Below are positions 1 to 5,138 of a DNA stretch of 5,138 nt, piece by piece. The number at the start of each line of letters is the position of its first letter. The first letter of the stretch is position 1. Below the pieces are notes generated by a model, which worked only from the letters and a program-made list of their open reading frames with translations, made no database searches and had not been told where the DNA came from. Source of the stretch: Chloroflexota bacterium (GTDB taxonomy: Bacteria; Chloroflexota; Anaerolineae; B4-G1); assembly GCA_003648125.1 (NCBI GenBank), contig QMOE01000226.1:1-5138 (forward strand). Reading direction: 5' to 3'. The position numbers and the translations under genes were made by a program.

Positions 1-486
1 GTAAATGTCCATCTGCACCTGGGAGAACGGCTGGGCCTGGAAAGTTTTGTCTCCCAGCGTTACCACGCCAGTTGTCAAGTCCACTGTGATCTCGGCGCCG
101 GTCTCGAACTCGCCCGCCATATCGGTCAGGCCGGGCAGTAAGACGATGGGCATTCCGCTGTTGATGGCGTTCCGTTTGTAGATCGCGCCAAAGCTCTCGG
201 CGACGATGGCGCTGACGCCCAGCGCGCGGAAGCAATCCACCGCCTGCTGGCGCGAAGAGCCTGCGCCAAAGTTCTTGCCCGCCATCACAATATCGCCCGG
301 TTGGGCCTTTTGGCTAAAGTCTTTCCAGCCCTCCAAGTTGTCCAGCGCATACTGGCCCATCTCGTCCACGTCAGTGATGTGCAGGTAGCGATTGTGAAAG
401 ATCATGTCTGTGTCAATGTCGTCGTACAGTTTGCCCTCGGGGTCGGTGAGCGCCCAAAGGCGGCCTGTGATTTTTGTGGGTCTCAT
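1..486 (-). CDS. Aconitase/isopropylmalate dehydratase-type small subunit (LeuD-like), 3' end cut by window
   Basis: This is the swivel-domain subunit that pairs with the adjacent large subunit to form a cytoplasmic [4Fe-4S] hydro-lyase moving a hydroxyl between neighbouring carbons of a di- or tricarboxylate. The frame is open for 162 codons to the left edge, so only a few residues are probably missing (family about 165-170). Visible motifs are DIDTDMIFHNRYL (residues 23-35), the substrate-binding NFGAGSSRQQA loop (72-82) and ESFGAIYKRNAINSGMP (97-113), all hallmarks of the LeuD/aconitase swivel fold. The ATG at 486 lies 2 nt past the TAG of the large-subunit gene and 7 nt after a GGAGG buried in that gene's last codons, so the pair is probably translationally coupled. 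The loop after the first motif (YLHITD), which contacts the substrate side chain in this family, is not one I can tie to isopropylmalate, so aconitase, homoaconitase or methylmalate-type specificity all remain open. Confidence 0.93.
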   Translation of the reverse strand, partial: MRPTKITGRLWALTDPEGKLYDDIDTDMIFHNRYLHITDVDEMGQYALDNLEGWKDFSQKAQPGDIVMAGKNFGAGSSRQQAVDCFRALGVSAIVAESFGAIYKRNAINSGMPIVLLPGLTDMAGEFETGAEITVDLTTGVVTLGDKTFQAQPFSQVQMDIY

Positions 487-488
487 TT

Positions 489-1739
489 CTACACCTCCGG
501 TACCGCGATCTCGCCCGCAAGCGCGCTCCAGGCGGCTGTGACAGGGCTGGCTAGATAGGTGTCGCCCGCGCCCTGCTTACCGGGAAAGTTGCGGTTGCTG
601 GTGCTGATATTCACTTGTTCTATCCCGGTCATACCGAGGTGGCCCGAAGCGCATCCTCCGCAACCGGGGTTGCTGACGATAAACCCGGCATCGAACAGTG
701 TCGCCAGCACGCCGGAGCGCAGCATCTGCTCGTAGACTCCCCGTGTGGCCGGCACCACCGTCGCCATGACGTGCGGCGCGACCTGTTTCCCTTTGACGAT
801 CTCCGCTACAGCGCCAAAGTCCTCAAAGCGCCCATTGGTGCACGAGCCGAGAAAGACGGAATCTATCCGCCGACCGGCCACCTCACGCACCGGCACCACG
901 TTGGCCGGACTGGGCGGGCAAGCGATGAGCGGTTCCAGTCCCGTGATGTCCACCTCGACCGTCTCCACGTACTCGGCGTCGGGGTCGGCGTAAATCCCAG
1001 AAACCAGGTTTTTGTCGCTGCGCTTACTGAAAAACCTGGTTTCTTCCGAAGGCGGGATAAAACCGATGATGCCCCCCACCTCTGTGACCTGGCTGGCGAG
1101 CGTGATGCGGCCCGGCAAATCCAGCGCTTCAATCGCCGGGCCGTAGAACTCGATGGCGCGGCCCAGCGCGCCGCTGGAACCAAGTTGGCCCATGACCGCC
1201 AGCGTCAAGTCGCGGGCCGTGCAGGGCGGCTTGATCTGGCCCTTGATGATCACCTTCATCGTCGGCGGTACCTCGAACCAGGTCTTGCCGGCCTTGAAGG
1301 TGAAGGCAATGTCCTGATCCCCCATGCCCTGGCCGAACGCGCCCACCGCGCCCAGGATATTGAGGTGGCTGTCGGTGCCGACAAAGGTTGAGCCGGGATA
1401 GGCCAACCCCTGCTCTATCGCCACGTGGGAGCCGATGCCGGCGTTCACGTCGTACACCTTGACCCCCTGCTCCCGCGCCCAGATGCGGCAGATTTGCTGA
1501 TTGTTGGCGTAGGGAATGTTGCTGGGCGGCACGACCAGGTCAAAGGTAAAGCAGGTCTTGGCCTTATCAGCCACGGGCGCGTCGCCATAGTGAGCGCGAT
1601 AGTTCTTGACCACGTTGGCCCCAGCAAAGTCGCGCGCCGAGCGGATGTCCAGATCGAGCCAGATGATGTTGCCCGGCGTGACGTCTGTCCCGGCGGGGCT
1701 GTGGGACTCGAAAATCTTTTGGATGATTGTCTTACCCAT
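489..1739 (-). CDS. Aconitase/3-isopropylmalate dehydratase-type large subunit (LeuC-like)
   Basis: This is the catalytic large subunit of a two-subunit [4Fe-4S] hydro-lyase, 416 residues, matching the shorter archaeal-type LeuC/homoaconitase branch (about 420) rather than the roughly 465-residue classical bacterial LeuC. The cluster ligands are C300 (GSCTNGR) and C360/C363 (NPGCGGCASGH). Also visible are the active-site GTDSH (121-125) and TSNRNFPGKQG (380-390). The ATG at 1739 lies 3 nt after the HD gene stop, with a purine-rich GAGG/GGGG stretch upstream, and the gene ends 2 nt before the small-subunit start. In this cluster an aconitase-like role (citrate/isocitrate) or action on a related substituted malate is as likely as leucine synthesis, since no LeuA or LeuB is present and a CoA ligase and a citryl-CoA-lyase homologue are. 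Residues about 233-247 are encoded by a perfect inverted repeat (999-1044), which is unusual. Family assignment is firm; substrate is inference. Confidence 0.95.
   Translation of the reverse strand: MGKTIIQKIFESHSPAGTDVTPGNIIWLDLDIRSARDFAGANVVKNYRAHYGDAPVADKAKTCFTFDLVVPPSNIPYANNQQICRIWAREQGVKVYDVNAGIGSHVAIEQGLAYPGSTFVGTDSHLNILGAVGAFGQGMGDQDIAFTFKAGKTWFEVPPTMKVIIKGQIKPPCTARDLTLAVMGQLGSSGALGRAIEFYGPAIEALDLPGRITLASQVTEVGGIIGFIPPSEETRFFSKRSDKNLVSGIYADPDAEYVETVEVDITGLEPLIACPPSPANVVPVREVAGRRIDSVFLGSCTNGRFEDFGAVAEIVKGKQVAPHVMATVVPATRGVYEQMLRSGVLATLFDAGFIVSNPGCGGCASGHLGMTGIEQVNISTSNRNFPGKQGAGDTYLASPVTAAWSALAGEIAVPEV
999..1044. repeat. Perfect 15-bp inverted repeat inside the leuC-like gene
   Basis: The left arm AGAAACCAGGTTTTT (999-1013) and the right arm AAAAACCTGGTTTCT (1030-1044) are exact reverse complements around a 16-nt spacer. 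Each arm also contains the near-palindrome AAACCAGGTTT. The element is translated in frame as roughly residues 233-247 of the large subunit (ETRFFSKRSDKNLVS), between the GFIPPSEE segment and the conserved YADPDAEY segment. Its shape resembles a dispersed palindromic repeat (REP/MITE-like) that has settled in a tolerant linker. I see no second copy in this window, so a dispersed family is inferred, not shown. Confidence 0.8.
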
Positions 1740-1742
1740 AGC

Positions 1743-2315
1743 TCACCCCATCCTCGCCGCTAGATTCTTGTCTTGCCCCATGCGCTGGATAGAGTGAAAG
1801 TTCATAAAGTCGGCGTGGTTGATGAGCGTGGCCTCGGTGGTGCGGATGACCTTGTCCCCCTCGCCGGCGTGGGTGGCGATGATATGCTGCACCTCGGCCG
1901 GCAGGCCGCAGCGGGCGGCCAGTTCCATGCCGGTGAAGGGATGGCGCAAGAGTTTTCCCTCGTAGGTCTGCACGGTAACGCCGTCGTCGCGGTTCTCGTA
2001 CTCGAGCAGCTTGCCGATGTCGTGCAAGAGTCCGCCAGCGACCAAATAGTCCATATTGACCGGAACCCGCTCGCCATAGATCTCCCCAAAGACTTTGGCA
2101 GCGCGCACCGCCGTCAGCGTCACCGCGCGGACGTGTTCGATGTAGGAGGCCGGGCAGGGGTTGATCAGCAGGGTGAACGGCATCTCGGCCAGCGCGTCGG
2201 GCGTCCAGCCGCTTTCCTCCATCGCCACATCCCAAGTCTTGAGGCACTTTTCGCGCAAGTCGTCGTCCCCGATCAAGTTAAATTCGGGAATCAACTCGAT
2301 TAGTCTCTCTCTCAT
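1743..2315 (-). CDS. HD-domain protein, probable metal-dependent phosphohydrolase
   Basis: This is a 190-residue soluble protein of the HD superfamily, whose members are mostly phosphohydrolases acting on nucleotides or phosphoesters. The conserved pattern is present: H61 (IEHVRAV), the HD doublet H98-D99 (GLLHDIGKL), H125 (LRHPFTG), H149 (IIATHAGEGD) and H167/D169 (INHADF), consistent with an intact one- or two-metal site. An upstream in-frame methionine exists at 2414, but it lies inside the lyase gene. The ATG at 2315 has AAGGAGAG just upstream with 4 nt between, and sits 13 nt after the lyase stop, so I chose it. The stop is 3 nt before the dehydratase large-subunit start, so it is an operon member. 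Its substrate is unknown; its place between a lyase and a hydro-lyase suggests a regulatory, repair or housekeeping role for the pathway rather than a carbon step, but that is inference. Confidence 0.9.
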   Translation of the reverse strand: MRERLIELIPEFNLIGDDDLREKCLKTWDVAMEESGWTPDALAEMPFTLLINPCPASYIEHVRAVTLTAVRAAKVFGEIYGERVPVNMDYLVAGGLLHDIGKLLEYENRDDGVTVQTYEGKLLRHPFTGMELAARCGLPAEVQHIIATHAGEGDKVIRTTEATLINHADFMNFHSIQRMGQDKNLAARMG

Positions 2316-2328
2316 TATTCTCTCCTTG

Positions 2329-3105
2329 TCACAGAGATCTCTCCTCCGGCCCACTGTACTCGTGCGCCGTGGGCGAGATGCGGCGCATGGGCCGCTGGGC
2401 AGTGATCTCGTCAAAGACGTGAGCCGTCAGCCCCACCGTGCGGGCGATGGCAAACAGACCGTTGCCCATCCCCGGCGGAAAGTCCAACTCGCACAGCACG
2501 GCGGCGATGGCCCCGTCCACATTCATTGGCAGATCGCGGCCCAGCGTCTCCTTCATCGCCTGACGCAGCGCCTGGCCCATCTCCACGTACTCGCCCGCCA
2601 CGCCTTCCTCCTCGCACAGAGCAAAGAGTTTGACTGTGCGCGGGTCCTCGCTGTGGATGCGGTGGCCGTAGCCGGGGATGCGTTTCTTTTGCGCCCGTTA
2701 CTCGGCCATCAGTTCGCGGGCGGCGGTGAGGGCGTCCTGCCCTTTTTCCTGCTTCCGCGACACGGCCTCCTTGAGCACTTTCATACAACCTTCGATGGCC
2801 CCGCCGTGATGTCGGTTGATGGTCATTATGCCGGCCGCGATACCAGTCGTCAGCGGCGCGCCGCCGGAGGCGACCGTCCGCGCCGCCAGCACCGAGGGGG
2901 GCGTCGCGCCGTGGTCCACGCTGGCGACGAGAATGGCGTCCATCACGCGCCCCTGCGACTCGGTGGGCAGTTCCCCCTTGAGCACCAAGTAAACGACGTG
3001 GGCGAACGGCACGCGGCCCATCAGTTCATCAATCCGGTAGCCGCGCACGGCCACCTTGTTCGGTTCGATTTTTGTGATCGGTTGTGACCAGGTTTGTTCG
3101 GTCAT
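2329..3105 (-). pseudogene. ccl: Citryl-CoA lyase / citrate synthase-like gene interrupted by in-frame TAA
   Basis: Read through the stop, this is 258 codons, the size of citryl-CoA lyase (about 260), not full citrate synthase (about 370-430). The family cleaves citryl-CoA to acetyl-CoA and oxaloacetate or runs related Claisen chemistry. Citrate-synthase-fold landmarks are ITKIEPNKVAVRGY (10-23), SVDHGATPPSVLAARTVAS (62-80), catalytic-type histidines in NRHHGG (97-102) and IPGYGHR (143-149), NVDGA (195-199), and ARTVGLTAHVFDEITAQRPMRRI (221-243). Codon 136 is TAA (2700-2698). Both sides stay in the same frame, so it is a point nonsense, not a frameshift. The 5' piece is 135 residues (3105-2698). 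The longest 3' piece with a usable start is a GTG at 2601 (90 residues), which would lack the second catalytic histidine (H148). The ATG at 3105 overlaps the nucleotidyltransferase stop as ATGA, with GGAG upstream. It may be a real pseudogene, a sequencing error, or rare readthrough. Family confident; functional state unknown. Confidence 0.85.
2698..2700 (-). other. In-frame TAA nonsense codon in the citryl-CoA lyase-like gene
   Basis: Codon 136 reads TAA between ELMAE and RAQKKRIPGYGHR. Single-base neighbours include CAA, GAA, AAA, TCA, TTA, TAC and TAT, so one substitution would restore a sense codon. TAA is neither the selenocysteine (TGA) nor the pyrrolysine (TAG) codon, and no ribosome-binding site with a start follows closely enough to rescue the second catalytic histidine. 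Confidence 0.9.
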
Positions 3106-3554
3106 GATTCATCTCCCGAGTGTAATTCCAAGATTCGCACGTCTTCTATATCCCGCTCACGCCCCGCCGCACGCTTGGAGGCTATCAGATCGTCTCTGGA
3201 AACTACCAGTATCTCTCGGCCCCGGTATTTCATAATCTCGCGCTGCTTCCACGCCTCATCAAAGTCTATCCCTGGGGTAGCGGTTTGTACGTCTATCTGC
3301 ACTCGATCCCTGAAAATCGTGATCTCGTGGGCCAGCAGATTTTCCGCTGTGGTCAGGCCAGCAGTGCCCAGCCTCGCTTCCAGTAGCGCATCCAGGAGCC
3401 GTTGCGCGTTTCCTGGTGTCGCTTCGATCAGGATATCCAGGTCAAACGTAGCGCGGGGCACGCCGTACAACACGGCCGCGATCCCTCCAATGACCAGATA
3501 TTTGACCTCATTCCGCTGTAAGGACGAGAACACGTCCTGCAATTGGTTGAGCAT
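3102..3554 (-). CDS. Small nucleotidyltransferase, AbiEii/MNT-like
   Basis: This 150-residue protein has the pol-beta-type nucleotidyltransferase core: the GG motif at 23-24 (LVIGGIAAVLYG), two metal-binding aspartates D38 and D40 (TFDLDILIE), a third carboxylate D88 (VQIDVQ), and a C-terminal DDLIASKRAAGRERDIEDV segment (121-139) typical of antitoxin/MNT-like stand-alone enzymes. Such proteins transfer an NMP to RNA or protein and often sit in toxin-antitoxin-type pairs. The ATG at 3554 has AAAAGG upstream. The reading frame overlaps the preceding 67-residue gene by 47 nt and overlaps the lyase start as ATGA, so all three may be translationally coupled. Base composition is lower in GC than the metabolic genes (for example 29/60 at 3541-3600 against 42/60 at 3841-3900 in the ligase gene), suggesting later arrival. 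Target and partner function are unknown. Confidence 0.85.
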   Translation of the reverse strand: MLNQLQDVFSSLQRNEVKYLVIGGIAAVLYGVPRATFDLDILIEATPGNAQRLLDALLEARLGTAGLTTAENLLAHEITIFRDRVQIDVQTATPGIDFDEAWKQREIMKYRGREILVVSRDDLIASKRAAGRERDIEDVRILELHSGDES

Positions 3555-3711
3555 CCTTTTGCTCCACTATATTCGGGTTGAGCGCGAGTATCAGGTCGGT
3601 AAAGGCGCACAAGAGTTCCATCCGCTCCTTGATGGAGAGAGATTGAAACCAACGCGCTTTGGCCTCTATCGAATCTTCGCTGCGGTCGTGCGAAATGGAA
3701 AAAGTAGACAT
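3508..3711 (-). CDS. Small protein paired with the nucleotidyltransferase (unknown function)
   Basis: This is a 67-residue protein I cannot assign to a named family. It starts with a polar segment followed by a helical-looking stretch, EAKARWFQSLSIKERMELL (16-34), then FTDLILALNPNI, and has no membrane segment or signal peptide. The ATG at 3711 shares a base with the ligase stop (TAATG), and AGGAG lies 4 nt upstream, so start choice is good and reinitiation after the ligase is likely. Its 3' end runs 47 nt into the nucleotidyltransferase gene in another frame, an arrangement typical of a coupled two-gene module. It is too short to be a HEPN-domain toxin. It may be a toxin or antitoxin partner, an adaptor, or a regulator. 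The overlaps and RBS support a real gene. Confidence 0.7.
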   Translation of the reverse strand: MSTFSISHDRSEDSIEAKARWFQSLSIKERMELLCAFTDLILALNPNIVEQKDAQPIAGRVLVLTAE

Positions 3712-4616
3712 TATGCTCCTATTCGGGCCAGCACCTCTTTGGTCGCCTGGGGCAAGTCCATAAAGCCCTCGACCACCGTCGCGCCGACCTGGCGCAGCCG
3801 CTCGACTTTGCCCTCGTAGGTGCCGCGTCCGCCTTCGACGATGGCCCCGGCGTGGGAAAAGCGGGTGCCGCTCTTGGCCGCCTTGCCGCCAATGTAGGCC
3901 ACCAGCGGCTTGGTGAACGCGCCTGCCTCGATCAGGTCGGCCACACGCTCCTCCTGGCTGGTGCCGATCTCGCCAAACATGACGACTGCTTTGGTATCGG
4001 GATCCCGTTCGTAGAGCTGCATCACATCCGGGTGAGGCAGGCCGACGACGGCGTCGCCGCCGACGTGAACCAGCGTGGTCGCGCCGATGCCCTCCCGCGC
4101 CAGGTAGTAGGCCATCGAAGAGGTGATGCCGCCGCTGCGGGAAGAGATGCCCACCGGCCCCTGGAAGAACCAGGAGCGGGCCGAGGCGGCCCGGCCGCCC
4201 ATCATGCCCAGCACGGCCTTGTCGGGGCTGAGCACGCCCAGCGTGTTTGGCCCGATAAAGTGCGCGCCGGTCTCTTTGGCCCGCCTGGCGATGACGAGTA
4301 CGTCGTAAATCGGCACCCGGTCGGGTACGATAACCAGCAACTTGACCCCGGCATCAATCGCCTCCAGCGCCGCGCTCTTGACCAGTGGCGCGGGGATAAA
4401 GAGCACGCTGACGTCAATCGGTCCGGTCTGCTCCCACGCCTCCTCGACCGTATCGAACACAGAGATGCCCTCGACTTCCTGGCCGCCCCGTCCGGGCGTC
4501 ACGCCGGCCACGACGTTGGTACCGTAGCCGACCATCAGTTTAGTGCGCGTCATACCCTCGCGCCCGGTGATGCCTTGTACCAGGACGCGCTTGGTTTGGT
4601 CTATCAGTATTGACAT
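3711..4616 (-). CDS. Succinyl-/citryl-CoA synthetase alpha-type subunit
   Basis: This 301-residue protein is the alpha subunit of an ATP-grasp acyl-CoA synthetase (ADP-forming type), which binds CoA and carries the phospho-histidine. The CoA-binding Rossmann part has QGITGREGM (14-22) and GVTPGRGG (38-45). GPNTLGV (122-128), GISSRSGG (156-163) and FGEIGTSQEE (214-223) follow, and the phosphorylated histidine is H255 in FSHAGAIVEGG. An in-frame ATG exists at 4637, but AAGGAGG (4632-4626) lies 9 nt before the ATG at 4616 and inside the longer version, so 4616 is chosen. No beta (SucC/CcsA-type) subunit is adjacent: upstream is an intergene then a DUF3800 gene. Next to a citryl-CoA-lyase homologue, the likeliest reading is citryl-CoA synthetase small subunit; succinyl-, malyl- or methylcitryl-type ligase is also possible. 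It is the first metabolic gene of the operon. Confidence 0.92.
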   Translation of the reverse strand: MSILIDQTKRVLVQGITGREGMTRTKLMVGYGTNVVAGVTPGRGGQEVEGISVFDTVEEAWEQTGPIDVSVLFIPAPLVKSAALEAIDAGVKLLVIVPDRVPIYDVLVIARRAKETGAHFIGPNTLGVLSPDKAVLGMMGGRAASARSWFFQGPVGISSRSGGITSSMAYYLAREGIGATTLVHVGGDAVVGLPHPDVMQLYERDPDTKAVVMFGEIGTSQEERVADLIEAGAFTKPLVAYIGGKAAKSGTRFSHAGAIVEGGRGTYEGKVERLRQVGATVVEGFMDLPQATKEVLARIGA

Positions 4617-4625
4617 ATTTCTTTT

Positions 4626-4632
4626 CCTCCTT
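4626..4632 (-). promoter_or_regulatory. Ribosome binding site that fixes the ligase alpha start
   Basis: AAGGAGG read on the minus strand, 9 nt before the ATG at 4616. It is the strongest Shine-Dalgarno in the window and argues against the upstream in-frame ATG at 4637. It abuts and slightly overlaps the -35 box of the rightward promoter. Confidence 0.85.
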
Positions 4633-4647
4633 GACACTGAGTGTAAA
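4631..4647. promoter_or_regulatory. Operator-like palindrome on the -35 box
   Basis: ACACTGAGTGT (4634-4644) is a perfect odd palindrome (5+1+5), and pairing resumes after one mismatch to give a 17-bp dyad, TTgACACTgAGTGTaAA. It covers the -35 box and start of the spacer of the rightward promoter and lies just upstream of the ligase RBS, where a bound repressor could block transcription in either direction. No regulator gene is in the window, and the match to any known operator is not claimed. Confidence 0.4.
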
Positions 4648-4659
4648 CTTTGCTATAAT
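4631..4659 (+). promoter_or_regulatory. Perfect sigma70 consensus promoter facing right
   Basis: TTGACA (4631-4636), a 17-nt spacer, then TATAAT (4654-4659): both hexamers match the housekeeping consensus at every position with optimal spacing. Transcription would begin near 4666 and run right, away from the operon, into the intergene and then antisense to the DUF3800-like gene. No plus-strand protein gene with coding character lies ahead, so a non-coding product is the simplest reading. Confidence 0.75.
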
Positions 4660-4681
4660 GTTGACGTAAGGTGCTCCGCAA
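4652..4681 (-). promoter_or_regulatory. Possible leftward operon promoter (weak)
   Basis: On the minus strand TTGCGG (4681-4676) and TATAGC (4657-4652) are separated by 18 nt, matching consensus at 3 and 4 of 6 positions. The -10 box lies on the same bases as the rightward TATAAT, which could make this a bidirectional -10 element. The start would fall near 4645, leaving a leader of about 28 nt before the ligase ATG. It is the best leftward candidate I can see, but the match is poor, and the operon could also be read from upstream. Confidence 0.25.
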
Positions 4682-4775
4682 CTGGATGGAGCGAATAGGG
4701 TGCTGAGATGCAACCGCCTGCTAGATAGGAGTCCTGCGCCCTTGATACTAGTGTCAGGGGCGCAACTCTTTGTTT
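4666..4775 (+). ncRNA. Candidate small structured RNA between the operon and the DUF3800-like gene
   Basis: A transcript from the perfect consensus promoter to the strong hairpin would be about 105-110 nt. Predicted local helices by eye are GCTCC/GGAGC (4673-4677 with 4688-4692, 10-nt loop), GGTGC/GCaACC (4699-4703 with 4710-4715, one bulge), and the 14-bp terminal hairpin. No coding frame of quality lies within it. I do not recognise the family: it lacks the SRP GGAAG/AGCA core. It has an AGGGTG...ACCGC order reminiscent of a T-box core, but without the intact T-box sequence or Stem I. Support is promoter plus structure plus terminator-like end, with no conservation data. Confidence 0.4.
4735..4775 (+). 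terminator. Hairpin, likely intrinsic terminator for rightward transcript
   Basis: TGCGCCCTTGATAC (4735-4748) pairs with GTGTCAGGGGCGCA (4751-4764) along all 14 positions, two as G-U wobbles; the two-base TA loop would in practice open to about six bases. A moderately T-rich tail, CTCTTTGTTT, follows on the plus strand. On the minus strand the hairpin is followed by GGACTCC, so it looks like a plus-strand terminator rather than one for the DUF3800-like gene. The tail is broken by C and G, so efficiency is uncertain. Confidence 0.55.
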
Positions 4776-5138
4776 ATGGCAATAGATCTAACCCCTCTGA
4801 GCGTGCCAGCATTTTGAGAATTATCTCCAGTCCCTTGAGACCTTTTGGATTTAGTTCGGCTAGCGTTCTTGCAGTTGGTACAGTCTGGTAAGCGTGAAAC
4901 AGTTTATAGGCACAAACATCAGCCAGTTGCACAGCAGCAAAAAATTCGGATTGTACAAAAACAGGGTACTCGACTAGCCGAGAGCCTCTGCCGGTTTTCT
5001 TCTGTCCCTGCAGATATTCCCGATGAACCGCTACAAGACGCGCATCTTTCAAGTTGCTGCGAATGGATGAAGCCCGAGAGTCAACCAGCACAAGGCCCAA
5101 GTCATCCTTCGCAAACAAGGATATGTCCACGCGATCAA
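4774..5138 (-). CDS. DUF3800-like protein, C-terminal part, 5' end cut by window
   Basis: The frame is open from the right edge to TAA at 4776-4774, giving about 121 residues. The apparent start, a GTG at 5130, sits in mid-domain, so the real start lies beyond the window. Features match the end of the DUF3800 family: a DISLFAKDDLGLVLVDSR strand-turn with the acidic DD, then LVEYPVFVQSEFFAAVQLADVCAYKLF, where the family has a 'xxFVxSxxSxxxQLAD' motif. DUF3800 proteins are uncharacterised, have been suggested to have an RNase-H-like fold, and are frequent in accessory regions. GC is lower than in the operon (28/60 at 4801-4860). It runs in the same direction as the operon but is separated by the 157-nt regulatory intergene. 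Confidence 0.75.
   Translation of the reverse strand, partial: DRVDISLFAKDDLGLVLVDSRASSIRSNLKDARLVAVHREYLQGQKKTGRGSRLVEYPVFVQSEFFAAVQLADVCAYKLFHAYQTVPTARTLAELNPKGLKGLEIILKMLARSEGLDLLP

Follow-up and report, generated by a model that had tools for sequence, protein, structure and literature searches.

A conserved operon of Anaerolineae that probably forms a citrate-synthase-free citrate arm of central metabolism

A 5,138-base stretch of a Chloroflexota genome (contig QMOE01000226.1, positions 1 to 5,138; the whole stretch is hereafter the window) holds a piece of an operon of Anaerolineae and Thermoflexia that probably covers the entire citrate arm of central metabolism with no gene for citrate synthase. 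Complete copies encode the beta and alpha subunits of a CoA ligase, a citryl-CoA lyase (CCL)-type protein, an HD-domain protein, two pairs of LeuC- and LeuD-type proteins (LeuC1D1 and LeuC2D2), and a dehydrogenase. These families, their order, the separation of both LeuC types from the leucine enzymes, the dehydrogenase motifs, and the replacement of citrate synthase across genomes are established here. With citrate as the presumed substrate, the lyase would act as CCL (acetyl-CoA + oxaloacetate <-> citryl-CoA), and the ligase, with its ferredoxin-type domain on beta, as citryl-CoA synthetase (CCS; citryl-CoA + ADP + Pi <-> citrate + CoA + ATP). LeuC2D2, with or without LeuC1D1, would serve as aconitase (citrate <-> isocitrate) and the last gene product as isocitrate dehydrogenase (IDH; isocitrate <-> 2-oxoglutarate + CO2).

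Using the read-through lyase as query, we recovered 11 loci (L001 to L011) in named Chloroflexota metagenome-assembled genomes. Alpha and the HD gene were each found in 10 of these, LeuC1 in seven, and LeuD1 in five, with several contigs ending within the cluster. The lyase query matched to some degree in 221 of the 298 genomes of a class sample, the weaker matches being citrate-synthase-like; 47 carried a lyase-like gene (E <= 1e-40) and 17 a window-type lyase (at least 67% identity). Together with G001, G003, G007, G008, and G011 these 17 make up 22 window-type carriers; all genomes are drafts of unknown completeness and were tallied by hand. In a set of 20 stretches, none longer than 20 kb, the full unbroken order beta-alpha-lyase-HD-LeuC1-LeuD1-LeuC2-LeuD2-dehydrogenase was found in G016, G184, G111, and G168. 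G098 and G291 have the same order with interruptions, the dehydrogenase of G291 lying ~5.5 kb further on, and the remaining stretches were cut by contig ends or otherwise arranged. The order thus recurs across Anaerolineae, complete copies adding beta upstream and the second LeuC/LeuD pair and dehydrogenase downstream of the genes seen in the window. Since it was found again in other genomes, the grouping is not due to chance, and the linkage of five families that a first-pass annotation of the window had proposed for checking elsewhere held.

In the draft genomes that carry the operon, citrate synthase was mostly not found. We counted a citrate-synthase match as strong if the best PF00285 hit of a genome had E < 1e-80, whatever its coverage. 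Such a match was present in 209 of the 298 class genomes: 184 of the 251 without a lyase-like gene and 23 of the 30 with another lyase-like gene, but only 2 of the 17 with a window-type lyase (Fisher p 5.6e-7, window-type carriers versus genomes without the lyase). The genomes are related, and on a lyase tree of 30 genomes the label for citrate synthase switches five times or more. Citrate synthase and one-chain aconitase were checked in 30 genomes, including the 22 carriers, and one-chain aconitase frames (654-924 aa) occurred in four carriers (G005, G006, G009, and G060). No match to PF00682, the family of LeuA, homocitrate synthase, and Re-citrate synthase, was found in 9 of the 22 carriers. 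Each of these nine encodes a PF00180 dehydrogenase scoring 270-290 bits, the operon-type range, and none has one at the 400-473 bits of LeuB-type enzymes; the operon type was assigned by motif in G003, G008, G016, and G098 and from the bit score only in the remaining five.

Open reading frames (ORFs) of the window were listed in all six frames. The cluster lies on the minus strand and reads, 5' to 3', alpha, a 67-aa ORF, a nucleotidyltransferase, lyase, HD, LeuC1, and LeuD1. The named families are all backed by Pfam and NCBIfam; the 67-aa ORF matched nothing. The ligase beta subunit was not found in the 5,138 bases and is listed here from other loci. The first-pass annotation had described five families in one close-packed run; all five do lie on one strand, but the nucleotidyltransferase and the 67-aa ORF separate alpha from the lyase. 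The features are as follows:

3711-4616, minus strand: CoA-ligase alpha subunit (SucD-like), proposed alpha subunit of CCS; PF02629 89.7 bits, PF00549 52.8 bits, PF13607 (scanned as 3711-4613)
2329-3105, minus strand: CCL-type gene, split by an in-frame TAA; PF00285 in both ORFs, PRK06224 models best in both
1743-2315, minus strand: HD/HDIG metal-dependent phosphohydrolase-type protein, 190 aa; PF01966 48 bits (scanned as 1743-2303)
489-1739, minus strand: LeuC1, LeuC-type large subunit of the aconitase superfamily with altered active-site motifs; PF00330 258 bits
1-486, minus strand: LeuD1, LeuD-type small subunit, truncated by the window end; PF00694 59 bits, TIGR02087 129.5 bits (cut-off 109)
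L005:3069-4661, L074:11211-12788, and others: beta subunit of the ligase, its C terminus carrying a 2x[4Fe-4S] ferredoxin-type motif
3508-3711, minus strand: 67-aa ORF, part of what looks like an insert separating alpha from the lyase; unmatched in Pfam and NCBIfam
3102-3554, minus strand: nucleotidyltransferase (DUF6036/DUF2204), apparently inserted; PF19502 36 bits, PF09970 23.5 bits
4774-5136, minus strand: DUF3800 fragment, the next gene upstream of alpha, where L001 has ligase beta

The identity of the lyase as a CCL, suggested from its size and family in the first-pass annotation, was borne out in an intact relative. The L074 lyase scored 274.5 bits against a PRK06224 model with a cut-off of 212 and matched the CCL structure 6hxp at 197 bits, the second PDB match reaching 71 bits. 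The citrate-synthase motifs DHG, HGGA, GHR, DPR, NVDG, and R..G..AH all line up in the lyase, and we take them to be those that bind a dicarboxylic 2-oxoacid.

The operon ligase is an alpha/beta enzyme of the succinyl-CoA synthetase (SCS) fold that is distinct from ordinary SCS. Alpha scored 294 bits against TIGR01019, under the cut-off of 353. Beta, which lies directly upstream of alpha in L001, is mostly 500-550 aa long owing to a C-terminal extension with an eight-cysteine ferredoxin-type pattern (CX2CX4CX3C...CX2CX2CX3C). This pattern was present in 18 of the 19 betas of the loci, the remaining one having a run of X there, and in 119 of the best 120 beta homologues (of 7105 matches, 7999 candidates scored). 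The domain may sense or pass electrons. A structure model of beta was fairly confident (mean predicted local distance difference test score 88), with a body resembling SCS, CCS, and ACLY, and by eye the blocks RPPTE, D.RG, GGGGS, and GNPPA are shared with Hydrogenobacter CCS and not with Thermus SCS. In a beta tree the operon betas formed one clade (100/99), apart from the ordinary SCS betas of nine genomes. An ordinary SCS beta above the curated cut-off occurs in 9 of the 22 carriers, and in six (G001, G029, G060, G070, G098, and G291) together with the operon type. Electron-transfer flavoprotein (ETF) beta- and alpha-type genes adjoin beta upstream in G098 (L073:4128-6270), the ETF alpha bearing 4Fe-4S ferredoxin domains.

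Both LeuC types stand apart from the leucine pathway, the point that the first-pass annotation had singled out for a tree. In a 55-row LeuC tree, LeuC1 (18 rows including the window) and LeuC2 (20 rows) each formed a clade with 100/100 support, while a third clade of 10 rows (100/99) held the nine LeuC near a LeuA-family gene, eight of which are also near a LeuB-type gene. Consequently, and given that neither type reached the leuC/LEU2 equivalog cut-offs, we rejected isopropylmalate isomerase of leucine synthesis as the function of LeuC1 and LeuC2. The LeuD loops typically read PARYLN in the leucine context, HNRYLHIT or HGSYLPLT in LeuD1 (HNRYLHIT in the window), and PGKYTY in LeuD2. LeuC2 has the standard aconitase motifs (DH, CHQ, DSH, and NRNF.GR; for example LDHVVP, GICHQV, DSHTP, and GRMG). 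LeuC1, across the 17 rows shown including the window, has D[LYC] for DH, G[IV]G[SQ]HV for GICHQV, and GK for GR, the window copy reading FDLVVP, GIGSHV, and GKQG; it retains the three Fe-S cysteine positions and DSH. We infer some division of labor between the two pairs.

The dehydrogenase of L074 matched IDHs best in the PDB (247 bits), followed by homoisocitrate dehydrogenase (226 bits). Operon dehydrogenases carry an IDH-type substrate loop, SPIV..R with RENT[EQ]G[LM]Y, where LeuB-context enzymes have RELTGGIY. The HD protein, predicted to have a YhaM-like fold, has the complete metal set H..HD..H..H..D: H61, D99, H125, H149, and D169 are invariant and H98 nearly so across 44 sequences. HD orthologs (E <= 1e-40) occurred in 28 of the 298 genomes, comprising 19 of the 21 with a lyase of at least 54% identity (G060 and G086 being without one) and 9 of the 277 others (Fisher p 2.9e-21).

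Several observations weigh against an operon dedicated to citrate. Alpha was closest in the PDB to SCS alpha (281 bits, versus 172 bits for the CCS small subunit) and beta to Thermus SCS beta (245 bits, versus 148 bits for Hydrogenobacter CCS), and the end branch of Hydrogenobacter CCS in the beta tree (3.75) is too long for it to be placed. Compared by eye, beta also lacks the residues that contact citrate in human ACLY. In LeuC1 the motifs that hold His101 and His147 are missing and an active-site Arg, presumably Arg452 of aconitase, is replaced by Lys; judged by these altered motifs, LeuC1 may not be an aconitase. Excerpts of PMC8184944 name His101, His147, Asp165, His167, and Cys358/421/424 as aconitase residues, and in yeast Aco1 a single active-site Arg-to-Lys change left 0.4% activity with aconitate and shifted preference (PMC3556520); we judge the Arg changed there to differ from the one replaced in LeuC1. 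Three operon dehydrogenases scored 284-299 bits against PRK08997, below its IDH cut-off of 510. The operon is not always whole, either: LeuC2D2 and the dehydrogenase lie elsewhere in the genome in G024 and G060, the parts in G029 are spread over four contigs (lyase; HD-LeuC1D1; LeuC2D2; beta), no partner genes were found near the lyases of 44-46% identity in G129, G100, and G258, and nine genomes have an HD ortholog but no close lyase. Two window-type carriers, G005 and G060, encode a full citrate synthase, and G006, counted as being without one, has a partial match (82.6 bits). Absences may moreover reflect missing contigs: G007 is without an operon-type dehydrogenase, and in G001 the contig stops partway through LeuC1. 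Loss of leucine synthesis is not general, PF00682 being clear in 11 of the 22 carriers and weak in two.

Some of these points would suit a relative of citrate, such as methylcitrate, homocitrate, or a substituted malate, being degraded in a CoA-dependent manner with LeuC1D1 as a novel dehydratase. The altered active site of LeuC1, LeuD loops that differ from those of leucine LeuD, and ligase scores nearer SCS than CCS fit this explanation, as do the top-scoring NCBIfam model for the three dehydrogenases scanned, homoisocitrate dehydrogenase AksF2 (334-345 bits, under the cut-off of 540), and the parallel gene clusters of G111 and G184 described below. However, the lyase retains its citrate-synthase motifs, the operon replaces citrate synthase phylogenetically, and the homocitrate-synthase family is unmatched in nine carriers; we consider such a substrate unlikely. 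Of the acids listed in the first-pass annotation, citrate is likelier than methylcitrate, citramalate, or homocitrate because the full operon adds beta, LeuC2D2, and an IDH-type gene. If citrate is the substrate, it could also be cleaved, as in Hydrogenobacter, for autotrophic CO2 fixation by the reductive tricarboxylic acid (rTCA) cycle. CCS and CCL are a known rTCA marker pair (PMC5459899), the ligase bears a ferredoxin-type domain, all 22 carriers have matches to the 2-oxoacid:ferredoxin oxidoreductase alpha type (13 above the cut-off), and 11 keep clear LeuA-family genes. Conversely, nine carriers without a LeuA-family match or a LeuB-type gene ill suit an autotroph, and it is the fused, ATP-citrate-lyase (ACL)-like form of alpha and lyase that goes with a full citrate synthase, the split form being mostly without. 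This makes rTCA cleavage quite improbable in our view. Genome content suits citrate synthesis at least as well as cleavage. Since neither leucine-pathway genes nor citrate synthase were found in some carriers, we weakly favor, for the carriers without leucine-pathway genes, net synthesis of citrate and 2-oxoglutarate with a gain of ATP over autotrophic cleavage; the presumed substrates and direction draw on family knowledge and genome content. A more specific version of the citrate arm would have a redox-linked CCS, with ferredoxin on beta, form citrate, yield ATP, and replace citrate synthase in anaerobic heterotrophic Anaerolineae, LeuC1D1 being a new active-site variant that performs half of the isomerization, much as homocitrate isomerization in fungi is split between two aconitase-family enzymes (PMC3556520), and the HD protein clearing a by-product or signal nucleotide; we regard this full version as speculative and rather doubtful.

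The window copy itself might be a decaying pseudo-operon, which would be compatible with a citrate arm in the family at large. Its lyase reading frame is interrupted, although intact relatives exist: a single in-frame TAA at 2698-2700 breaks the gene, the frame being the same downstream. From the stop to the start of the next listed ORF (2601) are 32 codons (96 bases) that include the citrate-synthase-type GHR motif, and hence neither listed ORF has a complete active site. Against NF004869 the first ORF scored 136 bits and the last 72 bits, both below the CCL cut-off. Decay would also account for the insert between alpha and lyase and for DUF3800 at the place of beta. Of L001 to L011, L002 alone has a counterpart of the 67-aa ORF in the corresponding position (75% identical), and the sole match to the nucleotidyltransferase there is its first 20 residues, again in L002, on which account it looks inserted. 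Yet no other frame of the cluster has an internal stop, and the ratio of nonsynonymous to synonymous substitution rates against the close relative L001 was low in alpha (0.11), HD (0.07), and the lyase before (0.09) and after (0.07) the stop. As the ratio is equally low on both sides of the TAA, the break is either young or a sequence error, and one substitution could arise in reading or assembly. L007 likewise has an extra gene, there between beta and alpha, and its lyase frame is open. Decay of the window copy is possible, though we lean against it.

CCS and CCL are enzymes already known from Aquificota. Similar to that pair in Hydrogenobacter, the operon has separate alpha and beta subunits and a lyase of ~260 aa that is nearest to 6hxp, along with CCS-like blocks in beta. 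Unlike it, beta has the ferredoxin-type extension, the genes are in linkage with those for the HD protein, both LeuCD pairs, and the dehydrogenase, and few carriers retain a strong citrate-synthase match. Unfused CCS/CCL-like genes have also been described outside Aquificota, in the Planctomycetes OTU-14 bin (PMC5459899), the excerpted text of which does not mention linkage to LeuCD, HD, or IDH genes. ACL combines the same domains. Alpha and lyase share one ACL-like frame of 571-591 aa in L062, L064, L065, and L067 (G259, G174, G030, and G157), genomes that also carry a full citrate synthase, but they are separate in the window and in those of L001 to L011 that show both. LeuC1 resembles the homoaconitase/isopropylmalate isomerase-type LeuCD of Methanocaldococcus jannaschii (4nqy, 4kp2; 296 bits to 4nqy) in family and Fe-S cysteines, but is without the DH and CHQ motifs and shows GK in place of GR. 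Like aconitase X, as far as the excerpted text of PMC8184944 describes it, LeuC1 is an aconitase-superfamily member without the standard active-site set; unlike aconitase X, it is a PF00330 protein that retains three cysteine positions. In the literature searched, we found no account of CCS/CCL combined with two LeuCD pairs, IDH, HD, and a ferredoxin-fused beta. If the proposed citrate arm is correct, a group of uncultured Chloroflexota bridges the citrate step by a route other than citrate synthase and could earn ATP from making citrate, and annotation that takes CCL/CCS as a marker of autotrophy would mislabel them. The operon would also offer two proteins for testing, a CoA ligase fused to a ferredoxin-type domain and a member of the aconitase superfamily that lacks the usual histidines.

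Gene content around the conserved core varied. In G060, LeuC1 directly follows the lyase and no HD match was found. In G231 and G279, genes for the large and small subunits of aconitase X lie upstream of beta (L077:4912-6574, L078:12653-14653) with a PrpD-type gene downstream, and LeuC1D1 was not seen; a functional swap is possible. G111 carries a parallel cluster, LeuC-LeuD-PrpF-SucB'-SucA'-HMGL-type lyase (L103:2118-8568), and G184 has LeuC-LeuD-SucB'-SucA' in the same order (L102) as well as an HMGL-family match. This second type of cluster perhaps represents another CoA-dependent acid pathway of like logic. Just upstream of the operon in L005 (637-2892) is a NACHT nucleoside triphosphatase gene with weak similarity to the antiphage protein EruA.

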